A DNA stretch of 20,070 nucleotides, taken from the IMG/VR virus record IMGVR_UViG_3300047551_003107, positions 1-20,070 of that record. One strand, 5' to 3'. Below, one piece after another: positions 2 to 20,070 of this stretch. The position numbers and the translations under genes were made by a program. The notes beneath the pieces were generated by a model. It was not told where the DNA came from. It made no database searches and saw nothing but the letters and a program-made list of their open reading frames with translations. Source of the DNA: a virus. Within the stretch, counting starts at the first letter, position 1, and every line of letters begins with the position of its first letter.

Positions 2-3000
2 TCAACTCAAGGAAAAAATGCCCAAGTTAAATTGATTAGTAATTCTATTGGACAAATTTTAGAAAATAAAATTAGTAATAGGGGATTTTCTTACCCATCA
101 GATTTAACATTAAAACCAAAAGCACAGATTCCTCAATTTTTATATTTAAAAAATAATACAGAAATTTCGAAAATTGAAATTACTTCTTCTGGAAACAATT
201 ATTTTTATCAACCATCATTAGTTTTAGTTAATTCTGAGACAAGAGAAAAAATTGATTCAGGATCATTAAGTCCAATTTTGTCAAATAATTCAATTGTGGG
301 TGTTGATATTATCAGTTCTCCGAAGGGACTAAGTTTTTCCCAGCATGAAATATACACACTAAACAATACTAATGGTATTGGAATAAATTCAGTATCATAT
401 TCAACGGCGGGAATTGTTACATGTGTACTATACACTCCTTTAAGTGGATTTTCTACACCACCTTTTTCTGAAGGAGATAAAATTTTTGTTGAAGGTATTG
501 AAAAAATTAGCGGTAATGGATTTAATTCTGAAGATTATGGATTTAGATTTTTTACTGTTAAAACTTATTATAATACCAATCCAGCAGTCATTGAATTTGA
601 TTTATCAGAATTTACATCTAATGCCGGTATTGCAAAAACAATACAGAATTATGCATCAGCAATAAATTACAATAATTATGCACAATTTAAAGTTTATCAG
701 AAAAATAGTTCATTTATAACTGATGAAAGTATATTAATTAATATTAATAATACTTATACAAAATCTGATCTTAGGGTGGTTGATTCAACTTCAAATTACA
801 TATCTTTAAAAGGGAGGGATTTATTAAAACAAAATTATATTATTAAAGGATTAAGATCTGGAACTATAGCACAAATAGAATCCATACAAAAAAATAATGG
901 ATTTTATAAAGTTGGTTCGACATATAACTTCTCAAAAGATTGGTCTAATGATACTGGAAAATTGAATTTTGACCTTCAAGTTACTCCAGATAATGATTAT
1001 TATCAAAACTTATCATACAGTGTTCAAAGTCCAGTAACATTTGAAGAGATGATAGATCCTGTAAATAATCTGTTACACACTGCAGGACTTAAGAACTTTG
1101 CCGACGTTGGCATATCTTCTATTGTAAATGCTTCTATAGCATCCACATCAGAATCTACTTTAATAGTTGATATTTTGAGTGAAAGAAGAGTTGATACTAT
1201 AAATCAATATGATTTAGTAAAAGATTATGATACATTTAACAAAAAATCAAAATATATTAAATTTAACTCTAAGAAATTATCAGATTACTTTTTATGTAGT
1301 ACTAATAGAGTTCTTGAGATTGATAATATTAAAAATCAATTTTTGTCCAAAGATACTGAAAAATCAGAATACTTGGACATAATCAGTTATCCCAAATATT
1401 TGAATTATTCAAGATTTTTAGTTCAAACTGTAGGAATTGAAACAAGTCAATATCAATTAGATGATGTTATTGTTATAAATGATGATAATGATGTTTATAC
1501 TGTAAACAGAGGTTCTGTATTTAATGGTGTTGGTGAAAATAATTATGCAAATATTTCCGGAAATATTGATGAATTTGGCAATTTAAGTTTGAGATTTAAT
1601 CCATCAAATACAAATAATGGATATAAAATAAAATCTTTTAGGAATAATTTCAATACGTCAACATCTGGAATTGGAACAAAATCTGTTGGATATGCTTCAT
1701 TAACTTCAAAAACACAAATTTGCTCTTCTGGTATCACTACAACAATTGTTGGGGTATCAACACTATCGTGCGAATCGTTTATTTCTGAAGTAGTTGTTTA
1801 CGATTCTTTAAATAATATTAATTTTTATGAGGTAGTAGTTGATCATGATGGCATTAATTCATATAATTCTCAATATTACTTTGACAATTCAAAGACTTTT
1901 CAATCCTCAGAATCAATAGGGTCTCTTGAGACAGTAATTAATGATAATAAATTATATTTAACTTTTACCAATAATGGAGAAACTTCTGTAACTATTAAAT
2001 CAAAAACTATTAATTTCTCAAATACTTCTTCAGGAATTAATACATTTAGATTTAAGTCTCCTGGACAACCGGATGGATCTGAAAGATCTGTAAGATTGCA
2101 ATCTGATTACTCTATAGTTTCTACTGCTTCTACTATAATTTCTGTTGATTCATCATCCGTATCATCGTTTAAGTCCTTAATTAGAATTAAGAATAATGAT
2201 TCATCATCATTACATCAAGTTTTATTTGTAAAAGACGAATCGTCAACTTACACTTTACCAAAATATTATCTTTCTGTGGGTAGTACTACTGGTCTTGGAA
2301 CTTTTGGATCTGAAATAAGTGGTTCAAATGCAATTTTAAAATTCTATCCAGACCAATCGCTTATGGGAACATTTGAAATATTATCATATAGTGAAATTAT
2401 GTATAGTGATTTAGATTATGATAACGACGAAACTACATTAAATTATGGGACAATAATAGAATCTATTCAAAGTGACGTTTTTAATAGTAAATTTGATCTT
2501 TTAGAATTTGATTTAAACTATAATAATACTCCAATTTTCCAAAAAACATTTAATCCTTCTATAGAAACTGTTCTTAATAAGCAAACTGGAGAATTTTTTA
2601 TAGAAAATCATTTCTTTAGTAACAATGAAGAACTTTTCTATGATCCAAAATCTACATTTATTGGCGTTGGAGCATCTGCAATTGGAATTGGAACTACGAT
2701 TGCGGGAGGAATAGAATTTGATGGTGATATTATTTCTGGATTTTCAACTATTACTGGAGTAAATTCTTCAGATTTTATTGAATATGGTCAACTTGTATTT
2801 GGACCCAATATTCCAGCAAATACAACAGTTGTCAGTGTAGGTCAAACCTATCAATATTTTAAAGGAGATGTTGTGGGTGGAGGATCAACGGTTATTACTG
2901 GAATTGCAAATACAATCATCTTTAGTATTGGTTCTGGAATCTTTTCTGGAGATGGAACTTCATTAGGAACTGTTCAAAGTATAGGAATATCATCAATCAC

Positions 3001-6000
3001 ATCAACCCTTACAATATCTGCAGGTAATGATAGATTATACTATACGGATAGATTAGGTATTGGAGTTTCTTTATCTAATGTAAGCGTAGGAACTACGTTT
3101 AGAGAATCATTTTCTTGCGGAATACTGACTGATAAATGTCCATCAACAGTATATGCAATTAAATTAAATAATAATAAATTTAAGATTACTGGTACAAAAA
3201 ATAGTGGTATTGGATTTACATTTACCGATAGTGGTGAAGGAAATTCTCACACATTAACCATGGTTAAGAGAAATGAAAAATCTTTAATTTCTATAGATGG
3301 CATTACTCAATACCCAATATTATATACCCCATTATCATATAATTTAAATAACTCAATATCTTTAACCGATGATCATTTTAGCTTAAGTGGTATCGCTTCA
3401 ATTAGACCAAATGATTTACTAAAGATAGATGAAGAATATTGTAGAGTTATAAATGTTGGATTGGGAACTACAACATCTGGACCAATAACTGGAATTGGCA
3501 CATTTTTAGTTGCAAATGTATCTCGTGGATTTGTTGGATCTTCTGCATCAACACATACATCTGGAACAGAATCTAAAATTTATAGAGGATCTTATAATAT
3601 AGTTGGTAATAAGATATTTTTCACAGAAGCTCCAAAAGGAAATTCTAAAAATACTGGATTAAATAATTCAAATTTAGATTATCCAAAATCTGAATTTTCT
3701 GGAAGAGTATTTTTAAGAAAAGATTATTCCCAAAATATAATTTATGATGATTTTTCTGATTCCTTTAATGGAATTGGCAAAACGTATTCTATAAAATATC
3801 TTGGAGATGATGTATCAAATATTGAACCTGGTAGTGGTTTATTATTTGTCAATGAAATTTTCCAAACTCCAAGCACAGAAAATAATGAAGGGAATAACTA
3901 TGAATTAGTCAGCATTGGAAATACTACAAATGTTGAATTTACAGGAATTTTAAATTCTAATTATGTATCTGATGAAGATATTAATCAAAATGAATTGCCA
4001 AGAGGTGGAATTATTATTTCTTTAGGTTCCACATCTGGTCTTGGATTTGCGCCATTAGTTGGCGCTTCTGTTACTGCAGTTGTTGGCGCTGGTGGATCAA
4101 TTGTTTCTGTTGGATTGGGAACAACTGATATTTTAGGATCTGGTTATAGAGGAATTGTTTCTATCGGATTAAGTGAAACTTCTCACGCTGTCGGAATGGG
4201 ATCTACGGCAATTATAATTGCTTCTGTTGGTGCTGGTGGAACATTATCCTTCACAGTTAGTTATGGTGGAACAGGGTACACTAATCCAAAAGTAACCATT
4301 CCGTCACCATCTTATGAAAATTTGCCAATCACAGGAGTATCTAGAATTGGAATTGGCACAACAACTAAAACTGGAATAGGGTTATCTATAACAGTTGATG
4401 TTAAAGAGTCTGTTGGTGTAGTAAGTGCATTTACATCAACTTATAGAGATTCTACAAGTTTAGATGATTCATTTATATCTGGATTAATTACAGGATCATC
4501 AACTAGAACAACCAAAACTCAAATATATGATCATATTTGGAATAATTATAGTAAATTTGATGTTGACGGTGACGGAATTGTTAGCTCAACAGATGCTTTA
4601 ATCCTAACAAGATATTTGCAAAAAACTTATATTGAAGATAATATTTTAAATGGAATATTTATCCCAATAACGGCAAAAAGAAAAACAGGGTATGAAGTGT
4701 TTAGACACATGGAAAAATATGATATTGGTCCTTATGGTCCAGAGCAATCTGAAGGTGATGGAACATATGATGTTAATGGCGATGAAACAACAGCAAACGA
4801 TTCTGAATTTTTAGTCAGATTTACTTATAATCCAAATAATGTCAATATTAATACTTATGGTATACCTGTTCCAAAATTATTAAATACTACATTCTTTGAA
4901 GTTGAATCCTTTAATATAGTGAAGAGTGGTTATTCTTTCCAAAAGGGAGATGTTTTCAAACCAGTTGGATTAGTCACAGATTATAGGCTTTCATCACCAA
5001 TTAGTGAATTTGAGATCACAGTTTTAGAAACATTTACAGATTCTTCTGCTTTATTGCAATTTGGAGAATTGGATTACATAGATTCTATTTCTAACTTACA
5101 AGACGGTGTTAAAAATAGATTCCCATTATATAGAAATAATCAATTATTAAGTTTTGAAATTGATCCGCTAAATGAAGATTCAAAATTAATAGATTTTGAT
5201 TCTCTATTAGTTATTTTTGTAAATGGAATTTTACAAAAACCAAAAGATTCGTATAGTTTTAGTGGAGGAACATCATTTATTTTTAATACTCCGCCAAAAC
5301 CAGAGGATAAAATTGATATTTTCTTCTATAGAGGAACTAGAGGTATTGATAGTGATTTAGAAAATGTGTTTGAAACAATAAAAATTGGAGATAATGTCTC
5401 TTTATTACATAATTCAAATTATCCAAAAACAATAGATCAGGACAATAGGGTTATTTTTGAAATACTAACATCAGATTTAGTTGAAACTAATCTTTATAGT
5501 GGGGTAGGTATTGATGATGAAATTTTTAAACCGATAGATATCATTCCACAAAAATCAGATAAAATTATAAATTCAACTTATGTGAGCAAATCTAGAGATT
5601 CTTTATCATCTCTTGTTTTTCCAACATCAAAAATTATTAAGAATGTATTATCATCGGATACAGAAATATTTGTTGATGATGCTAGTTCATTTAATTATGA
5701 AGAAAATACTGATCCAGAAAATAATAGTATAATTTCATTTGATGCATTATTAACAGTTTCAATTGATCCAGTAATTGCCTCATTGAAAGCAAATGTTCTT
5801 AATGATTCGTCAATATCAATATCAATTCTTGATGGTGGATCCGGATACATACCATCCAGCACTGTTACTTTAGATATATCTACACCATCTTCAGGAATAG
5901 GTGTTGGTATAGGGACAACTGCTCAAGCAACAGCATTAGTTTCTGTAGCTGGAACTATTTCATCGATTAATATAATTAATTCTGGATTTGGATATACGTC

Positions 6001-6559
6001 AATTCCTCAAGTTATATCTCCTCTACCAAGTAGTAAAATTGAAACTATATCAGAAATTAAATTTGTTCAAGGATTTTCTGGAATTATAACAGGTATAACA
6101 ACAACAAGTGGAACTAATTCAAATCCTCTTGCACTTAAGTTTTTCCTGAAAAAAGAGAGTGGAAATTTTAATACTTTACTCACATCATATCCAATTTTTA
6201 TTTCAAACACACAAAATCAAAATGGTGTCATTTCTATCAATAATGATGACAATGACGTTGTTGGTATTGGAACAACATTTTTAGACAATATTTATTATGT
6301 GCATAGTATTAATAGGAATGGTCTTGATGCAGAAATAGTTACAAACATTAAATCTGATAGTATCATTTCTTCTGGATTTTCTACCTCTGGTCCAAATCTT
6401 GGAAGATTTTCGTGGGGAAGATTAAGTTCTTTTGAAAGATCTAATCCAAATAATTTTGATGTCTCCGGAAATATTGTTTCTGGATTATCTTCATATCCAC
6501 AAATTCAAAGAAGAGGATATGGATTGAGAAATACAGGATCATTTAAAAACCAGTTATAA
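2..6559 (+). CDS. Giant T4-like baseplate/tail structural protein, gp7 position (5' end outside window)
   Basis: The reading frame is open from base 2, so the gene starts upstream; the TTG at 32 is not a credible start. At least 2,185 residues are visible. The gene lies directly before gp8, where T4 has gene 7 (wedge protein, 1,032 residues), so a baseplate wedge or peripheral baseplate role is inferred from position; I see no clear T4 gp7 sequence match. The protein is a string of Gly/Ser/Asn/Ile-rich beta modules: an N-terminal GxGY-like segment (110-335), a tandem duplicated domain (1706-2410), a stop-and-go module with NIPANT (2723-2938), an RG/H module (3353-3589), GxGY repeats (4061-4408 and 5804-6036), a dockerin-like segment (4523-4834), and two copies of a 'NGILQ-P' type module (near 3824-3955 and 5209-5340). 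The C-terminus contains GRFSWGRLSSF and QRRGYGLRNTG, a tail I recall from the large structural proteins of marine T4-like cyanophages. No signal peptide or membrane segment is evident in the visible part. Its stop codon overlaps the gp8 late promoter. Confidence 0.85.
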   Translation, partial: STQGKNAQVKLISNSIGQILENKISNRGFSYPSDLTLKPKAQIPQFLYLKNNTEISKIEITSSGNNYFYQPSLVLVNSETREKIDSGSLSPILSNNSIVGVDIISSPKGLSFSQHEIYTLNNTNGIGINSVSYSTAGIVTCVLYTPLSGFSTPPFSEGDKIFVEGIEKISGNGFNSEDYGFRFFTVKTYYNTNPAVIEFDLSEFTSNAGIAKTIQNYASAINYNNYAQFKVYQKNSSFITDESILININNTYTKSDLRVVDSTSNYISLKGRDLLKQNYIIKGLRSGTIAQIESIQKNNGFYKVGSTYNFSKDWSNDTGKLNFDLQVTPDNDYYQNLSYSVQSPVTFEEMIDPVNNLLHTAGLKNFADVGISSIVNASIASTSESTLIVDILSERRVDTINQYDLVKDYDTFNKKSKYIKFNSKKLSDYFLCSTNRVLEIDNIKNQFLSKDTEKSEYLDIISYPKYLNYSRFLVQTVGIETSQYQLDDVIVINDDNDVYTVNRGSVFNGVGENNYANISGNIDEFGNLSLRFNPSNTNNGYKIKSFRNNFNTSTSGIGTKSVGYASLTSKTQICSSGITTTIVGVSTLSCESFISEVVVYDSLNNINFYEVVVDHDGINSYNSQYYFDNSKTFQSSESIGSLETVINDNKLYLTFTNNGETSVTIKSKTINFSNTSSGINTFRFKSPGQPDGSERSVRLQSDYSIVSTASTIISVDSSSVSSFKSLIRIKNNDSSSLHQVLFVKDESSTYTLPKYYLSVGSTTGLGTFGSEISGSNAILKFYPDQSLMGTFEILSYSEIMYSDLDYDNDETTLNYGTIIESIQSDVFNSKFDLLEFDLNYNNTPIFQKTFNPSIETVLNKQTGEFFIENHFFSNNEELFYDPKSTFIGVGASAIGIGTTIAGGIEFDGDIISGFSTITGVNSSDFIEYGQLVFGPNIPANTTVVSVGQTYQYFKGDVVGGGSTVITGIANTIIFSIGSGIFSGDGTSLGTVQSIGISSITSTLTISAGNDRLYYTDRLGIGVSLSNVSVGTTFRESFSCGILTDKCPSTVYAIKLNNNKFKITGTKNSGIGFTFTDSGEGNSHTLTMVKRNEKSLISIDGITQYPILYTPLSYNLNNSISLTDDHFSLSGIASIRPNDLLKIDEEYCRVINVGLGTTTSGPITGIGTFLVANVSRGFVGSSASTHTSGTESKIYRGSYNIVGNKIFFTEAPKGNSKNTGLNNSNLDYPKSEFSGRVFLRKDYSQNIIYDDFSDSFNGIGKTYSIKYLGDDVSNIEPGSGLLFVNEIFQTPSTENNEGNNYELVSIGNTTNVEFTGILNSNYVSDEDINQNELPRGGIIISLGSTSGLGFAPLVGASVTAVVGAGGSIVSVGLGTTDILGSGYRGIVSIGLSETSHAVGMGSTAIIIASVGAGGTLSFTVSYGGTGYTNPKVTIPSPSYENLPITGVSRIGIGTTTKTGIGLSITVDVKESVGVVSAFTSTYRDSTSLDDSFISGLITGSSTRTTKTQIYDHIWNNYSKFDVDGDGIVSSTDALILTRYLQKTYIEDNILNGIFIPITAKRKTGYEVFRHMEKYDIGPYGPEQSEGDGTYDVNGDETTANDSEFLVRFTYNPNNVNINTYGIPVPKLLNTTFFEVESFNIVKSGYSFQKGDVFKPVGLVTDYRLSSPISEFEITVLETFTDSSALLQFGELDYIDSISNLQDGVKNRFPLYRNNQLLSFEIDPLNEDSKLIDFDSLLVIFVNGILQKPKDSYSFSGGTSFIFNTPPKPEDKIDIFFYRGTRGIDSDLENVFETIKIGDNVSLLHNSNYPKTIDQDNRVIFEILTSDLVETNLYSGVGIDDEIFKPIDIIPQKSDKIINSTYVSKSRDSLSSLVFPTSKIIKNVLSSDTEIFVDDASSFNYEENTDPENNSIISFDALLTVSIDPVIASLKANVLNDSSISISILDGGSGYIPSSTVTLDISTPSSGIGVGIGTTAQATALVSVAGTISSINIINSGFGYTSIPQVISPLPSSKIETISEIKFVQGFSGIITGITTTSGTNSNPLALKFFLKKESGNFNTLLTSYPIFISNTQNQNGVISINNDDNDVVGIGTTFLDNIYYVHSINRNGLDAEIVTNIKSDSIISSGFSTSGPNLGRFSWGRLSSFERSNPNNFDVSGNIVSGLSSYPQIQRRGYGLRNTGSFKNQL
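1706..2410 (+). repeat. Tandem duplicated ~100-residue beta domain in the gp7-position protein
   Basis: Two consecutive segments share a pattern: a Ser/Thr-rich strand with 'I..V..SSVSSF', a 'VVVYD' or 'IRIKN' strand, an 'FYEVVVDHD' or 'HQVLFVKDE' strand, a Tyr-rich stretch, then 'SIGSLETVINDNKLYLTF' or 'GTFGSEISGSNAILKFYP'. Copy one covers about 1706-2018 and copy two about 2102-2410. The similarity is at the level of strand pattern and spacing, not near identity, so the duplication is old. The function is unknown; a beta-sandwich decoration domain is inferred. Confidence 0.55.
2723..2938 (+). repeat. 'NIPxNTxVxSI' module, copy in the gp7-position protein
   Basis: The translated segment contains GDIISGFSTITG, then GPNIPANTTVVSVGQ, then a strand ending IANTIIFSIGSG. 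The same order (strand, 'G-x-NIPxNTxVxSI', strand, GSG) recurs in the fibre-like protein at 17290-17478. This looks like a small beta domain used in more than one virion protein. Assignment is by visual pattern only. Confidence 0.5.
3353..3589 (+). repeat. 'RG-x-H-x-SG' beta module, copy in the gp7-position protein
   Basis: The segment reads as a small beta domain: SISLTDDHFSL, then RPNDLLKIDEEYCRVINV, then VANVSRGFVGSSASTHTSG, then KIYRG. The same arrangement (a 'dd..l....G' strand, 'I.NE.I.Y' strand, 'RG..GS...TH.SG', then a Tyr-containing strand) recurs in the giant protein at 13989-14201. Known marine phage structural proteins carry similar modules, to my recollection; function unknown. 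Confidence 0.55.
4061..4408 (+). repeat. GxGY beta repeats (two copies) in the gp7-position protein
   Basis: Two successive copies run as 'GGSIVSVGLGTTDILGSGYRG...' and 'GTLSFTVSYGGTGYTNPKVTI...'. Each has a short strand, a G-(S/T)-G-Y turn, and a following P-x-V-x-I-like or I-V-S-I strand, then an Ala/Gly-rich linker. The same signature is found in gp8 (7229-7411), the giant protein (13446-13740) and gp14 (19403-20070). Confidence 0.6.
4523..4834 (+). other. Dockerin-like calcium-loop pair inside the gp7-position protein
   Basis: The first loop begins at 4559 and reads DVDGDGIVSSTDA, with Asp at loop positions 1, 3, 5 and 12 and Gly at 6, as in EF-hand/dockerin calcium loops, followed by a helix-like LILTRYLQ. 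The second, at 4769, reads DVNGDETTANDSEF followed by LVRF; it keeps D1, N3 and D5 but lacks the usual Gly at position 6. The two loops are separated by about 57 residues, longer than in a typical type I dockerin. Calcium binding that stiffens the protein is inferred; cohesin binding is not implied, and no cohesin is visible. Confidence 0.6.
5804..6036 (+). repeat. GxGY beta repeats (two copies) near the C-terminus of the gp7-position protein
   Basis: The copies are 'ISISILDGGSGYIPSSTVTLDI' split by the GxGY turn and 'ISSINIINSGFGYTSIPQVI', joined by a Gly/Ala-rich GIGVGIGTTAQATALVSV linker. The spacing, turn and following strand match the tandem copies in gp14 most closely (for example SINVTNPGLGYTQPPSIIV there). 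Confidence 0.65.
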
Positions 6560-6580: not shown

Positions 6581-8131
6581 ATGTCTGGGGCAATAATAAC
6601 AAATCAATTTAGAATTTCTAACTCCAAAAGTTTTGTAGATTCTATAAAAAATGAGATAGATTCCTATTATTTGTTTTTAGGTCTACCTAATCCAATAGAC
6701 ACAGTTGGATTTGGTAGAACAGATACGTGGAATTCAAATCCACCATCACCCGTGGACAATTTAGATTACTTATCTCACACTAGAGACAATATTTTATTTG
6801 GTAAAAAAATAACTTCATTAAATGTCAGAAGATTGATTAGAAAAATATCATGGACTTCTGGAAAAACGTATGAAATGTATAGACATGATTATAATATAAA
6901 CAATCCCTCACCAACTAATAAAAATTTATTTGATATAGATTACTACGTTGTAAATTCAGATTATAGAGTTTATATATGCATAGATAACGGATCTTCTGTT
7001 GATAATCCAACAGGTAATCCATCTACGGATGAACCAGTATTTACATCTTTAGAACCATCAAAATCTGGAGAAGATGGATATGTTTGGAAATACTTATACA
7101 CTATTTCTCCAGGAGATATTATAAAATTTGATTCTACCGAATATATTCCAGTACCAAATGATTGGGAAACGAGTGAAAAAAGTGATATAAAAGAAATAAG
7201 AGATAATGGAAATTCCGATTTAAATAATAATCAATTAAAAAAGATTTATATTAATAATAAAGGATCCAATTACGTAAACGGTGGAAGATGTAAAATACTT
7301 GGAGATGGTGAGGGTGCAGAAGCAATTATTGAAGTTAATGATTTAGGTGAAATTACAAACGCCACAATTGTTACAGGAGGTAAAGGATATACTTATGGTA
7401 TCATAGATTTAGACGATTACAACAAATCATCTACTAGTTTTGCAGAATTAATTCCTATTATTCCCCCATCAAAAGGTCATGGTTATGACTTGTATAATGA
7501 ACTTGGTGCAGATAAGATTTTAATTTATATTAGATTTGACGATTCTTCTCCAGATTATCCAATTGATACTAAATTTGCCCAGATTGGGATAATTAAAAAT
7601 CCCCAAAAATATGATGGTACATCATTTACAGAATCGGAATTTTCTGGTCTTTATGCATTAAAACTTAAAGAAGATGATTTAAGTGTTGAAATTGGTGAGA
7701 AAATTACTCAAACATATGTTGATGACGATAACAGAACTGTAATTGCGAAAGGGTATGTTGCATCTTATGATTCAAGTACTAAAGTATTAAAGTATTTTAG
7801 AGATAGAAGTTTATATTATTCTAATTCATTTACACATATAGATAATAACTCTGTTGGTATCACAACTTATTCTAAAGTTGTAGATTTTAAATCGACTGAA
7901 ACTGATAGTATTGTTGGTGGAAGTTGGTCTGCAACAATTGATACTAGTTTTAATGAAGATTATGTTACAAAAGACTCTGGTATAATTAGTCTTGGAGTAG
8001 TTTTTGAAGGTGGTATTTCTAAACCAGAAATAAATAAAAAGATGGGAGATATAATTTACTTAGACAATCGTCCATTAATTTCTAGAAATTCTAGACAAAA
8101 AGAAGATATTAAAGTAATACTGGAATTTTAA
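6581..8131 (+). CDS. 8: gp8-like baseplate wedge subunit
   Basis: This is the counterpart of T4 gp8, a wedge subunit of the contractile tail baseplate. Matches recalled from T4 gp8 occur in the same order: an FGR-x-x-x-W motif near residues 44-50 (FGRTDTW), DGYVWKYLYTI near 165-175, EYIPVP near 187-192, an IGIIKNP strand near 335-341, MGDIIYLDNRPLI near 488-500, and a C-terminal EDIKVILEF. The protein has 516 residues against 334 in T4. The excess lies mainly in two inserts: a GxGY repeat module at about 217-277, and a second segment at about 345-475 containing GEKITQ and TVIAKGYVASYD. The ATG at 6581 is chosen because it follows the late promoter closely and the N-terminus (GAIITNQFRISNS) aligns with the start of T4 gp8. 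There is no Shine-Dalgarno. It ends 4 bases before the next gene. Confidence 0.93.
   Translation: MSGAIITNQFRISNSKSFVDSIKNEIDSYYLFLGLPNPIDTVGFGRTDTWNSNPPSPVDNLDYLSHTRDNILFGKKITSLNVRRLIRKISWTSGKTYEMYRHDYNINNPSPTNKNLFDIDYYVVNSDYRVYICIDNGSSVDNPTGNPSTDEPVFTSLEPSKSGEDGYVWKYLYTISPGDIIKFDSTEYIPVPNDWETSEKSDIKEIRDNGNSDLNNNQLKKIYINNKGSNYVNGGRCKILGDGEGAEAIIEVNDLGEITNATIVTGGKGYTYGIIDLDDYNKSSTSFAELIPIIPPSKGHGYDLYNELGADKILIYIRFDDSSPDYPIDTKFAQIGIIKNPQKYDGTSFTESEFSGLYALKLKEDDLSVEIGEKITQTYVDDDNRTVIAKGYVASYDSSTKVLKYFRDRSLYYSNSFTHIDNNSVGITTYSKVVDFKSTETDSIVGGSWSATIDTSFNEDYVTKDSGIISLGVVFEGGISKPEINKKMGDIIYLDNRPLISRNSRQKEDIKVILEF
7229..7411 (+). repeat. GxGY-type module inserted in gp8
   Basis: Residues about 217-277 of gp8 read as 'LKKIYINNKGSNYVNGGRCKI', then GDGEGAEAIIEVND, then ITNATIVTGGKGYTYGIIDL. 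That is two successive strand-turn-strand units with G-S-N-Y and G-K-G-Y turns and an Ala/Gly-rich connector. They match the repeats in gp14 and the two giant proteins. T4 gp8 has nothing like this at the corresponding place between the EYIVVP and ISIITNP motifs. Confidence 0.65.
8029..8036 (+). promoter_or_regulatory. Possible weak late promoter (AATAAATA) within the end of gp8
   Basis: An 8-base match to the looser late motif NATAAATA described for T4-like cyanophages, located 99 bases before the ATG at 8136 and inside the gp8 coding sequence. It could give extra transcription of the giant gene. In DNA this AT-rich such a match can arise by chance (it encodes an EINKK stretch), so confidence is low. 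Confidence 0.25.
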
Positions 8132-11100: not shown

Positions 11101-14100
11101 CATCTACAAGATGCTCTGATATTTTAGATTTTAGACCAAGAGTGTCAGATTTTTCAGATACTTCATCGTCCCCATTTGCATTTACGAGTAGGAATTTTGC
11201 AGTTTCTGGAATAAACCCATCTATTGTTGTTTCTCCAAATGAAAGTTGTGTAATTGGATATTCTTATTATTTGCCAAGAATTGATAAATTAGTTTTAGAT
11301 AAGACGGGAGAATTTAAATTAATCTCAGGAACTCCAAGTTTAAATCCTAAAGAACCACAATTCAATGATGACATATTAAATGTTGCTTCTATATTTTTAC
11401 CAGCATATCTTTATAGTCCAGATGATGTGAAGATAACATTGATTGATAATAAGAGATATACTATGAGAGATATAGGAAAACTTGAAGATCGTATTGAAAG
11501 TTTAGAAACTACGACTTCTTTGTCGATATTAGAATTAGATACAAAAACACTACAAATACAAGATGCTGATGGTCTTTCCAGATTTAAGTGTGGATTTTTT
11601 GTTGATGATTTTAAATCTGTAGATTTGATGGATATTGAAAATCAAGATACAAAATGTTCTATATTAAATGATAGAGGTGAACTGAGTTCTAGAATAGATT
11701 TATTTTCATTAAAACCAGAGATTGCTCCAGCAAGTAATATAAATTTAGAAAATATTGATTATAATATTGATTATGATTTATTAGACAGTAATGTTCAGAA
11801 AACTGGAGATTTAATAACACTAAAATATAATCAGATTAAATGGAATAATTTACAGCAATTAATAGCAACAAGAGTTACGCCAGTAAATCCTTATGAAGTT
11901 GTAGAATACAATGGATCAGTATCTCTTTATCCTCCAAGTGATTTTTGGATTAGAGACGTTATTTTAGATAGAGGAACAACAAGAAGTATTACAGGCAGTC
12001 AAAATACATCATATACAGAAAATGTTTTGCTTAGCACAACTTCAGATTTGTATATGAGATCCAGAAATGTGAAATTCTTTGCCAATGGATTAGATCCTCT
12101 TACAAAATATTATTCATTTTTAGATGCTAATAAAGATATTGATATTATACCAAAACTTTTAGAAATAACAATGGTATCTGGTCAATTTACCGTTGGTGAA
12201 ACAGTTTATGGTTATTTAAACGAATCAAGTAAAAATAATTTTAGAAGCACAATATCTTTTAAAGTTGCTCAACAAAATCATAAAGAAGGAGCAATTGATA
12301 ATCCATCAAAAACATATAATTCAAACCCATATAATTCTTCATTAACTCTTTCTGGATATAATTCTTCATCTACAGTTTTAAACATTGATGTAACTTCACT
12401 ATCACAAGAAGCGAAGGGTCAATTTTTTGGATATGTTGAAAAAGGAATGACTTTGATTGGAGGTACTTCTAAAGCACAAGCAACAGTATCAGATATTAGA
12501 CTCATATCCGATACTTATGGAGATTTAGTCGGTTCTTTCTTTATAAGAGAACCAAATACTATTCCATCACCTTTGGTGAGAATTAAAACCGGAACAAAAG
12601 TATTTAAAGTGTCTTCTAGCTCTATAGATGCTTCCCTGTTGCCAAAAGGTTATGTAATTTCTTCTGCAGAAACTATATACTCCGCAACTGGAATTGTGCG
12701 TACTTTTGATAGAGTTACTGTAAATGTCATTAGAAGGCATGATCCCCTTGCACAATCGTTTACTACCGATCAAGATGGTGGATTTTTATCTTCAATAGAC
12801 CTTTGGTTCTATCAAGCAGATGAAGGTAAAAATGTAACAGTTGAAATTAGACCTGTTGATTTAGGTCTCCCTATGGGAAGACCGCTTTATGATTATGCGC
12901 GAGTTGAATTGACCTCAGATCAAATTATTACCTCACAAGATGCTTCTAAACCTACAAATATTAAGTTTCCATCACCAATTTATTTACAACCTAATACAGA
13001 ATATGCAATAGTTATACTTTCTCCAAAATCAAAGAAATACTATGTTCATACTGCGAAGAAAAATGAAAAAAATGTTTCCTTAACTGATTTGCCAGATGTA
13101 GAATCAGTTGTTTATAACATTCAATACACTGGAGGAAGTTTATTTAAATCACAGAATGGAACTGTTTGGACTCCTTATCAGGACGAAGATCTAAAATTCA
13201 GATGTTATAAGTGTAATTTTACATCTAATACTGGAACTTGCTACTTTTATAATCCAGATTTATCAAAAACTGCTTTATCTAAAGATACTAATGTTTATAA
13301 TACAATAAATGATCCAATCACAACTTTCCCAAGAAAAGTTATAATTGGTATTGACACTTCATCATCCTTAAATAATATTCTAACCCCTGGAGTAAAGGTT
13401 GAGGCAGGATCTGGATCTGGAGTTATTGGATACATTGAAAAAGTAGGAGGACCAGTTGCCATAACAACAACAGTTAATGTTGGTGCGGGTTATTCCTCCG
13501 CAACATCATTTACAAATGTTTCTCTTTATAGTGAAATTGGTTCTGGATTTGGGGCAAGAGCATCAGGAACCTTCAATTCTTCTGGACAATTAAATACAAT
13601 ATCGATTGCCAGCACTGGTAGTGGATATGTTGTTGGTGATGTTCTTGGAATAACTACTGCAGATGTTGGTGGTAAGGGAACTGGGATCAAAATTGGAATT
13701 TCTTCAATTGGAGGAATTGATAAACTCTACTTGACCAATGTTAAAGGTGAAAAATTTGATATATCTCCAACAACTACTTTAGTATATTATAACAACAACA
13801 GTCCAGTTTCTTTATCTGGAACTTATATTAAATCAAGTTCTCAATTTAGCGATTTGCATTCTGGAAAGGTAATTGAAATATATGACTATAGCCATGGGAT
13901 GCACGCTTCTAACAATTTAGTTAGTATTTCTAATGTATTTCCAACTACATTACCTGTAAAAATTGTAAATAGTATAACTTCATCCTCAAATTTAATTACT
14001 GTAGATAATGTGGGAATATTTACAACTTTTGAAGGACAACCTGTTGGAGCATCAAATACTGGATACGTATTAATTAATAATGAAATAATTGCATATAATA

Positions 14101-18740: not shown

Positions 18741-20070
18741 TGGCACTAAATCCTTTTTTTCAACAAGGTTCTCCTAATGAACAATATCTGGTACAAGATT
18801 TGATAAACGAACATATTAGAATGTTCGGTATAGAAGTTTATTATATTCCAAGAAAATTAATAGATGTTGATAATATTTTAAGAGAAGTTAATTCTTCAAA
18901 ATTTGATGACAATTTTATTATTGAAGCATATCTTAATAACTATGATGGATATGGTGGGCAGGGCGATATTATGACAAAATTTGGTGTTTCTCTAAGAGAT
19001 GAGGTTGATTTAATTATTTCCAGAGAAAGATTTGAAGAATTTATATCTCCATTTTTAAATGCAAGACTATCAAATACCCAAAATCCTCTTGTAAGTGAAG
19101 ATTATGATGATGGTGGAGATTTATTTATTTCTTCCAGACCTAAAGAAGGAGATTTGATTTACTTTCCATTGGGCCAAAGATTATTTGAAATTAAGTTTGT
19201 AGAACACGAAAATCCATTTTATCAACTTGGTAAAAATTATGTTTATGAATTAAAATGTGAATTGTATGAGTATGAAGATGAAGTTCTTGACACTTCGATT
19301 GAAGAAATTGACACTGTTTTAGAAGATGAGGGGCAAATTACTACGCTCCAATTACAATCTTCAGGATCTTCTGCTCAGGCTTTTGCATATTTGGGTAGTG
19401 GAATTGTTCAGAAATTGAATATTATTACTGATGGATATGGATATAAAACTGCTCCAGATGTTATTATTTCTCCATCAGATTCTTTTGATGGCACTAATGC
19501 AACAGCATTTGCCGAAATATATAGAGGAAGTTTAAAAAATGTATATTTAACTAATACTGGAAGTGGGTACACAAAAGCACCTACAGTGTCAATAGTTGGT
19601 GGTGAGGGAAAAAATGCAAAGGTTACGGCATCATTAATAGATGATAATGAATTAATTGGAACCGGAATTAGAAAAATAGAAATTCAAAAATTTGGATCTG
19701 GATATGTTTTGCCACCAACAGTAACTATTAGTCCTCCAAATTCATACGGAGCAAAAGGTCTGGTTACAATAAATGGAATAGGATCTATAACTTCTACTCA
19801 AATACAAGATTCTGGTCAATTTTATGATCCAAATAAAAATCCAGAAATTTTAATAACTCCAAATACAAATACATCACAAACAGCATCTGCAATTTCAAGA
19901 ATTGGTGTTGGGGGGTCTATAACATCAATAAACGTAACTAATCCAGGTTTGGGTTATACTCAACCTCCATCTATTATTGTTGGAAATGGATCTGCCCCAA
20001 TCGGAGGATCATTAGGAATTGTGAGTGCAATTTTGTCACAAACAGATGGGTCTATATTATCCATTTCAGT
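18740..20070 (+). CDS. 14: gp14-like neck protein with long repeat extension (3' end outside window)
   Basis: The frame is open from the ATG at 18740 to the window end (443 complete residues). Residues about 20-195 match T4 gp14 (256 residues) as I recall it: INEHIRMFGIEVYYIPRKL against T4 AESIQMRGVECYYVPREY, then AYLNNYDGYGG, FGVSLRDEVDLIISRERFEE, PKEGDLIYFPLGQRLFEI and NPFYQLGKN. Gp14 works with gp13 in the neck at the portal vertex. After an acidic stretch (EEIDTVLEDEGQ), where the T4 protein is near its end, this protein continues with at least five beta repeats of GxGY type from residue about 222 to the window edge. The start overlaps the gp13 stop by one base. The total length is unknown. 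Confidence 0.92.
   Translation, partial: MALNPFFQQGSPNEQYLVQDLINEHIRMFGIEVYYIPRKLIDVDNILREVNSSKFDDNFIIEAYLNNYDGYGGQGDIMTKFGVSLRDEVDLIISRERFEEFISPFLNARLSNTQNPLVSEDYDDGGDLFISSRPKEGDLIYFPLGQRLFEIKFVEHENPFYQLGKNYVYELKCELYEYEDEVLDTSIEEIDTVLEDEGQITTLQLQSSGSSAQAFAYLGSGIVQKLNIITDGYGYKTAPDVIISPSDSFDGTNATAFAEIYRGSLKNVYLTNTGSGYTKAPTVSIVGGEGKNAKVTASLIDDNELIGTGIRKIEIQKFGSGYVLPPTVTISPPNSYGAKGLVTINGIGSITSTQIQDSGQFYDPNKNPEILITPNTNTSQTASAISRIGVGGSITSINVTNPGLGYTQPPSIIVGNGSAPIGGSLGIVSAILSQTDGSILSIS
19403..20070 (+). repeat. At least five tandem GxGY beta repeats forming the gp14 C-terminal extension
   Basis: Units of about 37-46 residues begin near residues 222, 264, 310, 347 and 392, and a sixth begins at 438. 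Signature pieces are KLNIITDGYGYKTAPDVII, NVYLTNTGSGYTKAPTVSI, KIEIQKFGSGYVLPPTVTI, STQIQDSGQFYDPNKNPEI (degenerate turn) and SINVTNPGLGYTQPPSIIV. Each unit has a strand, a G-x-G-Y turn, a P-x-V-x-I strand, then an Ala/Gly/Ser-rich connector. The repeats run off the window end, so the copy number is a minimum. Confidence 0.8.

Follow-up and report, generated by a model that had tools for sequence, protein, structure and literature searches.

The gp8 baseplate wedge gene of IMG/VR virus record IMGVR_UViG_3300047551_003107 raises the question of what an additional module, built from two GxGY-type turns, is doing inside a core protein of the tail, and to what it is related. The stretch analysed here, referred to as the window, is this 20,070-base virus record, in which gp8 is encoded by an open reading frame (ORF) of 516 amino acids (Table 1), the length given in the original prediction made from the DNA letters. 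According to that prediction, a surface loop of gp8 had merely accepted a decoration domain shared with other virion proteins. Our results show that the module is instead a fixed part of gp8, and they point to a very probable common origin with domain I of the T4 tail sheath protein gp18.

The window protein is an ordinary representative of phrog_438, the gp8 family of cyanophage type, and matches it in a profile search with an expectation value (E) of 1.1e-150 over residues 4-516; the module is part of this family, and the window gp8 is no different in kind. The Pfam model Phage-Gp8 (PF09215) also matched above its cut-off (E 2.7e-10). The nearest gp8 of a named phage is that of Synechococcus phage S-SRM01, with 54% identity as the maximum, and a gp8 identical to that of the window is found on one IMG/VR contig (L001). 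The AlphaFold2 (AF2) model of the full-length protein has a mean predicted local distance difference test score (pLDDT) of 89.9 and displays the T4 gp8 fold, as judged by comparison with 1n7z (Z 20.5, root-mean-square deviation (rmsd) 3.4, 275 residues). T4 gp8 itself (PF09215, phrog_977) is indeed 334 amino acids long and lacks the module. It has 57 residues between the anchor columns, compared to 95-179 in module-bearing gp8 proteins, and the gp8 profile breaks on T4 gp8 exactly at the module, in agreement with the alignment to T4 and other gp8 proteins that places these residues outside the T4-shared core. Since phi812 and A511 have small baseplate proteins that match the full gp8 model over 167-172 residues (Z 12.3-13.9), the module also lies outside the minimal gp8 core.

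Both GxGY-type units were found where they had been predicted, together with the Ala/Gly link between the turns (GDGEGAEA, residues 241-248). The module stretch scores 89 bits against a profile of other gp8 proteins from which the window row had been left out, and it is also found by phrog_460, an independent head-closure family (E 3.5e-6); the match is therefore above chance. The span first proposed, positions 7229-7411, lies within the module but ends too early, as the domain reaches about residue 296 and the last strand (residues 289-293 in the AF2 model) is lost from it. Nor does the module explain all of the extra length relative to T4 gp8: it makes up about 83 of the 182 residues, and a second extra segment accounts for most of the remainder. 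The P-x-x-G-H-G motif closing the module is conserved in at least 90% of the module-bearing gp8 proteins, and none was seen in T4 gp8.

To describe the distribution of the module, we used gp8 matches listed from module-bearing queries, 4 of 335 being dropped as shorter than 320 amino acids. Among the 331 matches listed, 328 carry the module, which is no population estimate, as the set leans to module holders and includes near-identical contigs (phiM9, for instance, is present twice, L085 and L256); the three without it are the Straboviridae-type references T4, Aeromonas phage 65 and phiWae14. In an alignment of the window gp8 with those of 13 named phages, the module is present in Kyanoviridae, pf16, phiM9, RHph_Y68 and Bhz51, and these same three references have a short loop in its place. 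Module-bearing gp8 proteins are found in Kyanoviridae, Pootjesviridae, Chakrabartyvirus and Menderavirus, and the module is missing from all nine Straboviridae-type gp8 proteins tested. The gp8 profile skips from position 170-180 to at least 401 in VH1, Acj9, Cronus, G5211, BHU20 and AB1I1P, and no module match was found in the records of these phages; in Campylobacter F375 the gp8 profile search found no gp8.

Conservation was assessed in gp8 proteins under 78% identity to each other, of which 98 representatives were obtained and 97 used, one being cut at its 5' end (L332). Of the fourteen columns invariant in these 97 proteins, five belong to the module (G228, G241, G243, G267 and Y270). The module shows 1.84 bits per column versus 2.07-2.2 in the core, and pairwise distances in module and core are closely correlated (Mantel r 0.888, a value reached in 0 of 999 permutations). 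The module is a fixed part of gp8, inherited with the gp8 core, and not ornamental. The idea that a loop simply took up a decoration is not supported, given that all gp8 proteins tested outside the Straboviridae type carry the module, that its conservation is near that of the core and that its sequence tracks the core. A tree was built from module copies, 11 of gp8 and 26 others, but their sequences are too short for it to be resolved: of 34 inner branches, 3 have good support, and the gp8 copies as one clade were neither shown nor rejected (p value of the approximately unbiased test, p-AU, 0.071). Within this weakly resolved tree, the window gp8 pairs with P-SSM2 gp8 and not with the window gp14.

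Modelled alone, the module reaches an AF2 pLDDT of 90.2 and is predicted to be a self-folding six-stranded beta domain. Against solved structures, the lone-module model gave Z 6.7 for 3foa (rmsd 2.6, 73 residues), 6.5 for 3fo8, 6.3 for 3j2m and 5.7 for 9ev2, the next unrelated match having Z 2.6; every match above background is a T4-type tail sheath protein. The matched part of gp18 is approximately residues 99-188, i.e. domain I, and the predicted model of the module has the fold of this domain. The full-length gp8 model gives the gp18 match too, over residues 220-294. Among predicted viral structures, Foldseek matched the lone module to gp8 proteins, to a neck protein (gp14) and to further proteins of the virion.

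The sequences point in the same direction, albeit faintly. T4 gp18 contains GSNY at 107 and GKNY at 148, in the order seen in the module; of these two turns, the first is the better preserved in the other aligned Straboviridae sheaths. With the gp8-module profile, gp18 102-155 is the best of 646 T4 ORF segments (8.2 bits, weak E of 0.094). In hhalign, the module scores 22.8 against Straboviridae domain I, above all 100 column shuffles (maximum 17.2); of the windows along gp18, those covering domain I come out on top. Intermediates weigh more heavily. The sheaths of phiM9 and RHph_Y68 (Pootjesviridae) contain, after the same conserved N-terminal part as in T4, a two-turn GxGY domain at the T4 domain I site (residues ~91-173), with the turns GTGYSIGD/GTGYTIGD and a second GTGY. 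This domain matches the gp8 module with an hhalign probability of 89.5% (score 34.4, shuffled maximum 16.4) and T4-type domain I with 42% (score 26.0, shuffled maximum 22.0). Likewise, a Menderavirus frame of 524/527 amino acids next to gp8 is matched by the gp8 module profile (E 9.3e-6) and by the Straboviridae domain I profile (E 9.7e-5), the same stretch also being matched by Pfam Gp18_dom_I (PF22639; E 2.6e-6). Backed by these intermediates in Pootjesviridae sheaths and in Menderavirus, common ancestry of the gp8 module and gp18 domain I is, in our judgement, very probable. In eight module-bearing phages, 6 of the 10 sub-cut-off places of Gp18_dom_I overlap GxGY matches (about 1-4% expected for each), two of the six being near-identical Menderavirus copies and two more coming from one family; such places were also obtained in 2 of 14 control genomes.

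With regard to the sheath itself, 22 sheath proteins were compared. The domain is found at the domain I site in nine of Straboviridae type and two of Pootjesviridae, and elsewhere in two of Menderavirus, while nine had no match above 6 bits (seven Kyanoviridae, pf16 and Campylobacter F375). The lack of a domain I match in the Kyanoviridae sheaths would be compatible with the domain having moved from one partner to another, as read from a small number of independent lineages; the window's own sheath gene falls outside the record. The sheaths of the Stenotrophomonas phages YB07 and Bhz51 contain a strong two-unit GxGY module at residues ~232-321, which is not the T4 domain I site. Strict mutual exclusion, with the domain either in the sheath at the domain I site or in gp8 and never in both, was rejected: phiM9 and RHph_Y68 have both, and Bhz51 and YB07, whose gp8 carries the module and whose sheath has it at a different site, also counter it.

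What the module may do can be approached from T4. In PMC3004832, gp18 domain I (residues 98-188) is described as protruding, as binding the baseplate and the retracted long tail fibres and as making no sheath-sheath contact, and the substitutions G106S, S175F and A178V stop long-tail-fibre retraction. Counting Met as 1, residues 106 and 178 of T4 gp18 are Pro and Leu, and residues 107, 176 and 179 are Gly, Ser and Ala. By this Met offset the published G106 is therefore the Gly of the GSNY turn (107 counting Met), the counterpart of G228 in the window. The same source places T4 gp8 at the baseplate periphery, where it forms with gp7 the platform for gp6, and states that gp9, the fibre socket, can reach gp8 after the switch (PMC3004832). 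Like the module, T4 gp18 domain I has a six-stranded beta fold over 73-75 residues with a first GSNY turn and is inserted in a tail protein; unlike the module, it resides in the sheath and not in the baseplate, and the sequences are hardly alike.

The best reading, which we consider probable, is that a docking domain of the gp18 domain I type has become fixed in the baseplate wedge. The module would then be a six-stranded beta domain, constant in gp8 proteins outside the Straboviridae type, of the same domain family as gp18 domain I, and the GxGY copies in other virion proteins would belong to that family too. Sitting on the baseplate wedge, it would give the exterior of the tail machine a surface for docking, which before triggering might keep fibre-like virion proteins or folded tail fibres in place, or contact the first sheath ring. 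That the module works in this way, as gp18 domain I does, is by analogy a tentative proposal. A wider scheme, in which one docking domain serves varied partners (the sheath in the T4 lineage, the wedge in cyanophages and pelagiphages, both in Pootjesviridae) and cyanophage fibres are held and released from gp8 instead of the sheath, appears rather unlikely.

Several observations weigh against kinship and docking. Foldseek alone ranks gp18 chains first with a best E of 0.28, which is not significant, and Z values of 6-7 can also be reached by unrelated folds. In hhalign, the module and T4-type domain I reach a probability of just 20.8%. The six other aligned Straboviridae sheaths do not retain the second GxNY turn of T4 gp18, and Gp18_dom_I matched none of 63 gp8 modules at E 0.1. 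If the GxGY beta hairpins were independent, the resemblance to gp18 domain I would reflect a common small-barrel arrangement; Z below 8, the low hhalign probability and the 63 unmatched modules speak for this. Such convergence is nevertheless highly improbable, as every structure match above background is a gp18-type sheath protein, the phiM9 and RHph_Y68 intermediates occupy the same sheath site, and the places found by Gp18_dom_I overlap those of GxGY. The conserved module positions, mostly turn Gly and Tyr together with strand hydrophobics, also fit a purely structural role. The module could accordingly act as cement that stabilises gp8 or its wedge contacts with gp6, gp7 and gp10, without any docking, and its close tracking of the gp8 core and the nearly invariant P-x-x-G-H-G junction would agree with this. 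However, related copies occur in unrelated virion proteins, and in T4 the relative has no part in sheath-sheath contacts (PMC3004832), so that we regard cement as unlikely.

A further idea is that the module weakly binds sugars on the host surface, like an immunoglobulin (Ig)-like phage ornament. The domain D3* of Dpo31, the Carin-1 tailspike, is the top match to the module among 177635 sequences, though with E 0.01. Likened here by sequence alone, it has two GxGY turns in the same order and is inserted in another protein core, but it lies inside a beta-helix depolymerase and is described as Ig-like. No Dpo31 entry figures among the fold matches listed for the lone module, which counts neither for nor against a relation. 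In PMC13317679, which publishes the inserted domain, its sugar-binding role is the authors' speculation, and the module columns contain no conserved surface polar set, which makes adhesion improbable. Ig-like extra domains in sheath proteins, with suggested roles, are likewise published (PMC9230969). Of a different kind is a proposal on history only, compatible with the docking reading, namely that a T4-like gp8 ancestor had the module and Straboviridae lost it. We give it even chances. The presence of the module in Kyanoviridae, Pootjesviridae, Chakrabartyvirus and Menderavirus and its absence from 9 of 9 Straboviridae-type gp8 proteins speak for it, whereas the minimal gp8-like proteins of phi812 and A511 (173-194 amino acids) align with the core for the greater part of their sequence. 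Since these are too short to hold the module, it was added at some point.

The docking reading does not make the module a filed member of PF22639. That family forms an insertion within domain II of tail sheath proteins, the module sits in gp8, and Gp18_dom_I gave no match in the window record at E 1; a Pfam/NCBIfam scan of 63 gp8 module copies found no model that covers them.

Table 1. Features of the gp8 gene and further GxGY copies in the window
Feature	Position	Strand	Remarks
gp8 baseplate wedge gene	6581..8131	+	516-amino-acid ORF; phrog_438 profile match, AF2 model compared with T4 gp8
GxGY module, two tandem beta-beta-beta units	7220..7468	+	residues ~214-296; profile match, folds alone
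First turn GSNY (G228-S-N-Y231)	7262..7273	+	residues 228-231; counterpart of T4 gp18 GSNY turn
GDG turn	7301..7309	+	residues 241-243; both Gly invariant in 97 gp8 proteins
Second turn GKGY (G267-K-G-Y270)	7379..7390	+	residues 267-270; G267 and Y270 invariant in 97 gp8 proteins
P-x-x-G-H-G motif closing the module	7466..7483	+	residues 296-301
Second extra segment relative to T4 gp8	7631..7990	+	about residues 351-470; less conserved
GxGY module in gp7-like giant protein (ORF 2-6559)	5816..6001	+	E 3.3e-7
GxGY module in 2356-amino-acid DUF4815 protein	13467..13679	+	E 4.7e-5
Further GxGY units, C-terminal side of gp14 (head closure Hc2)	19340..19963	+	profile match

One part of the original prediction that is supported is that the module is common to other virion proteins. 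Within the window it recurs in gp14, in the gp7-like giant protein and in the 2356-amino-acid protein, and many PHROG virion families contain it. The same units, with E down to 1e-13, occur in gp14/Hc2 (phrog_460) and in the giant virion families phrog_701, 2885 and 4406, where they often form arrays; the GDG turn and the P-x-x-G-H-G junction are instead mostly features of the gp8 type. The gp14 units of the window form an array, after the neck-protein part. A 6378-amino-acid open frame of S-RIM2, a giant virion protein, contains a copy close to the gp8-type module, with a similar GYTTATVDIDAI strand, and gene-to-gene copying is possible in this case. The gp7-like giant protein of the window (phrog_2885) also contains, at residues ~1519-1596 (nucleotides ~4556-4789), a Pfam Dockerin type I match above cut-off (E 2.4e-6). 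Dockerin type I is a calcium-binding motif typical of cellulosomes.

The second extra segment of gp8 shows 1.23 bits per column, and part of it resembles small beta barrels and the N-terminal barrels of F1/V-type ATPases, with weak Z values of 4-5. Read as a copy of a module located elsewhere in the window, it scored weakly, with a best of 9.7 bits (in the 2356-amino-acid protein). In the alignment, ACG-2014j, phiM9 and RHph_Y68 have further long inserts near gp8 residue 40, in the N-terminal part, and several extra segments are therefore tolerated by gp8. The gp8 of IME-SM1 is annotated as two separate ORFs, perhaps through a frameshift or an annotation split.

An open-access literature search, judged mostly by title or abstract start, found nothing tying cyanophage gp8 to gp18 domain I, and no fibre-docking site on marine T4-like phage tails turned up in the literature searched. 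A relative of the T4 domain in which a turn mutation blocks fibre retraction, present in a core baseplate protein, would provide a named residue, G228, as a testable site. It would also provide a common name for the GxGY repeats across many virion proteins that are annotated only as structural. By analogy with T4, the module indicates a possible docking place for tail fibres or adjacent tail parts on very common marine viruses.
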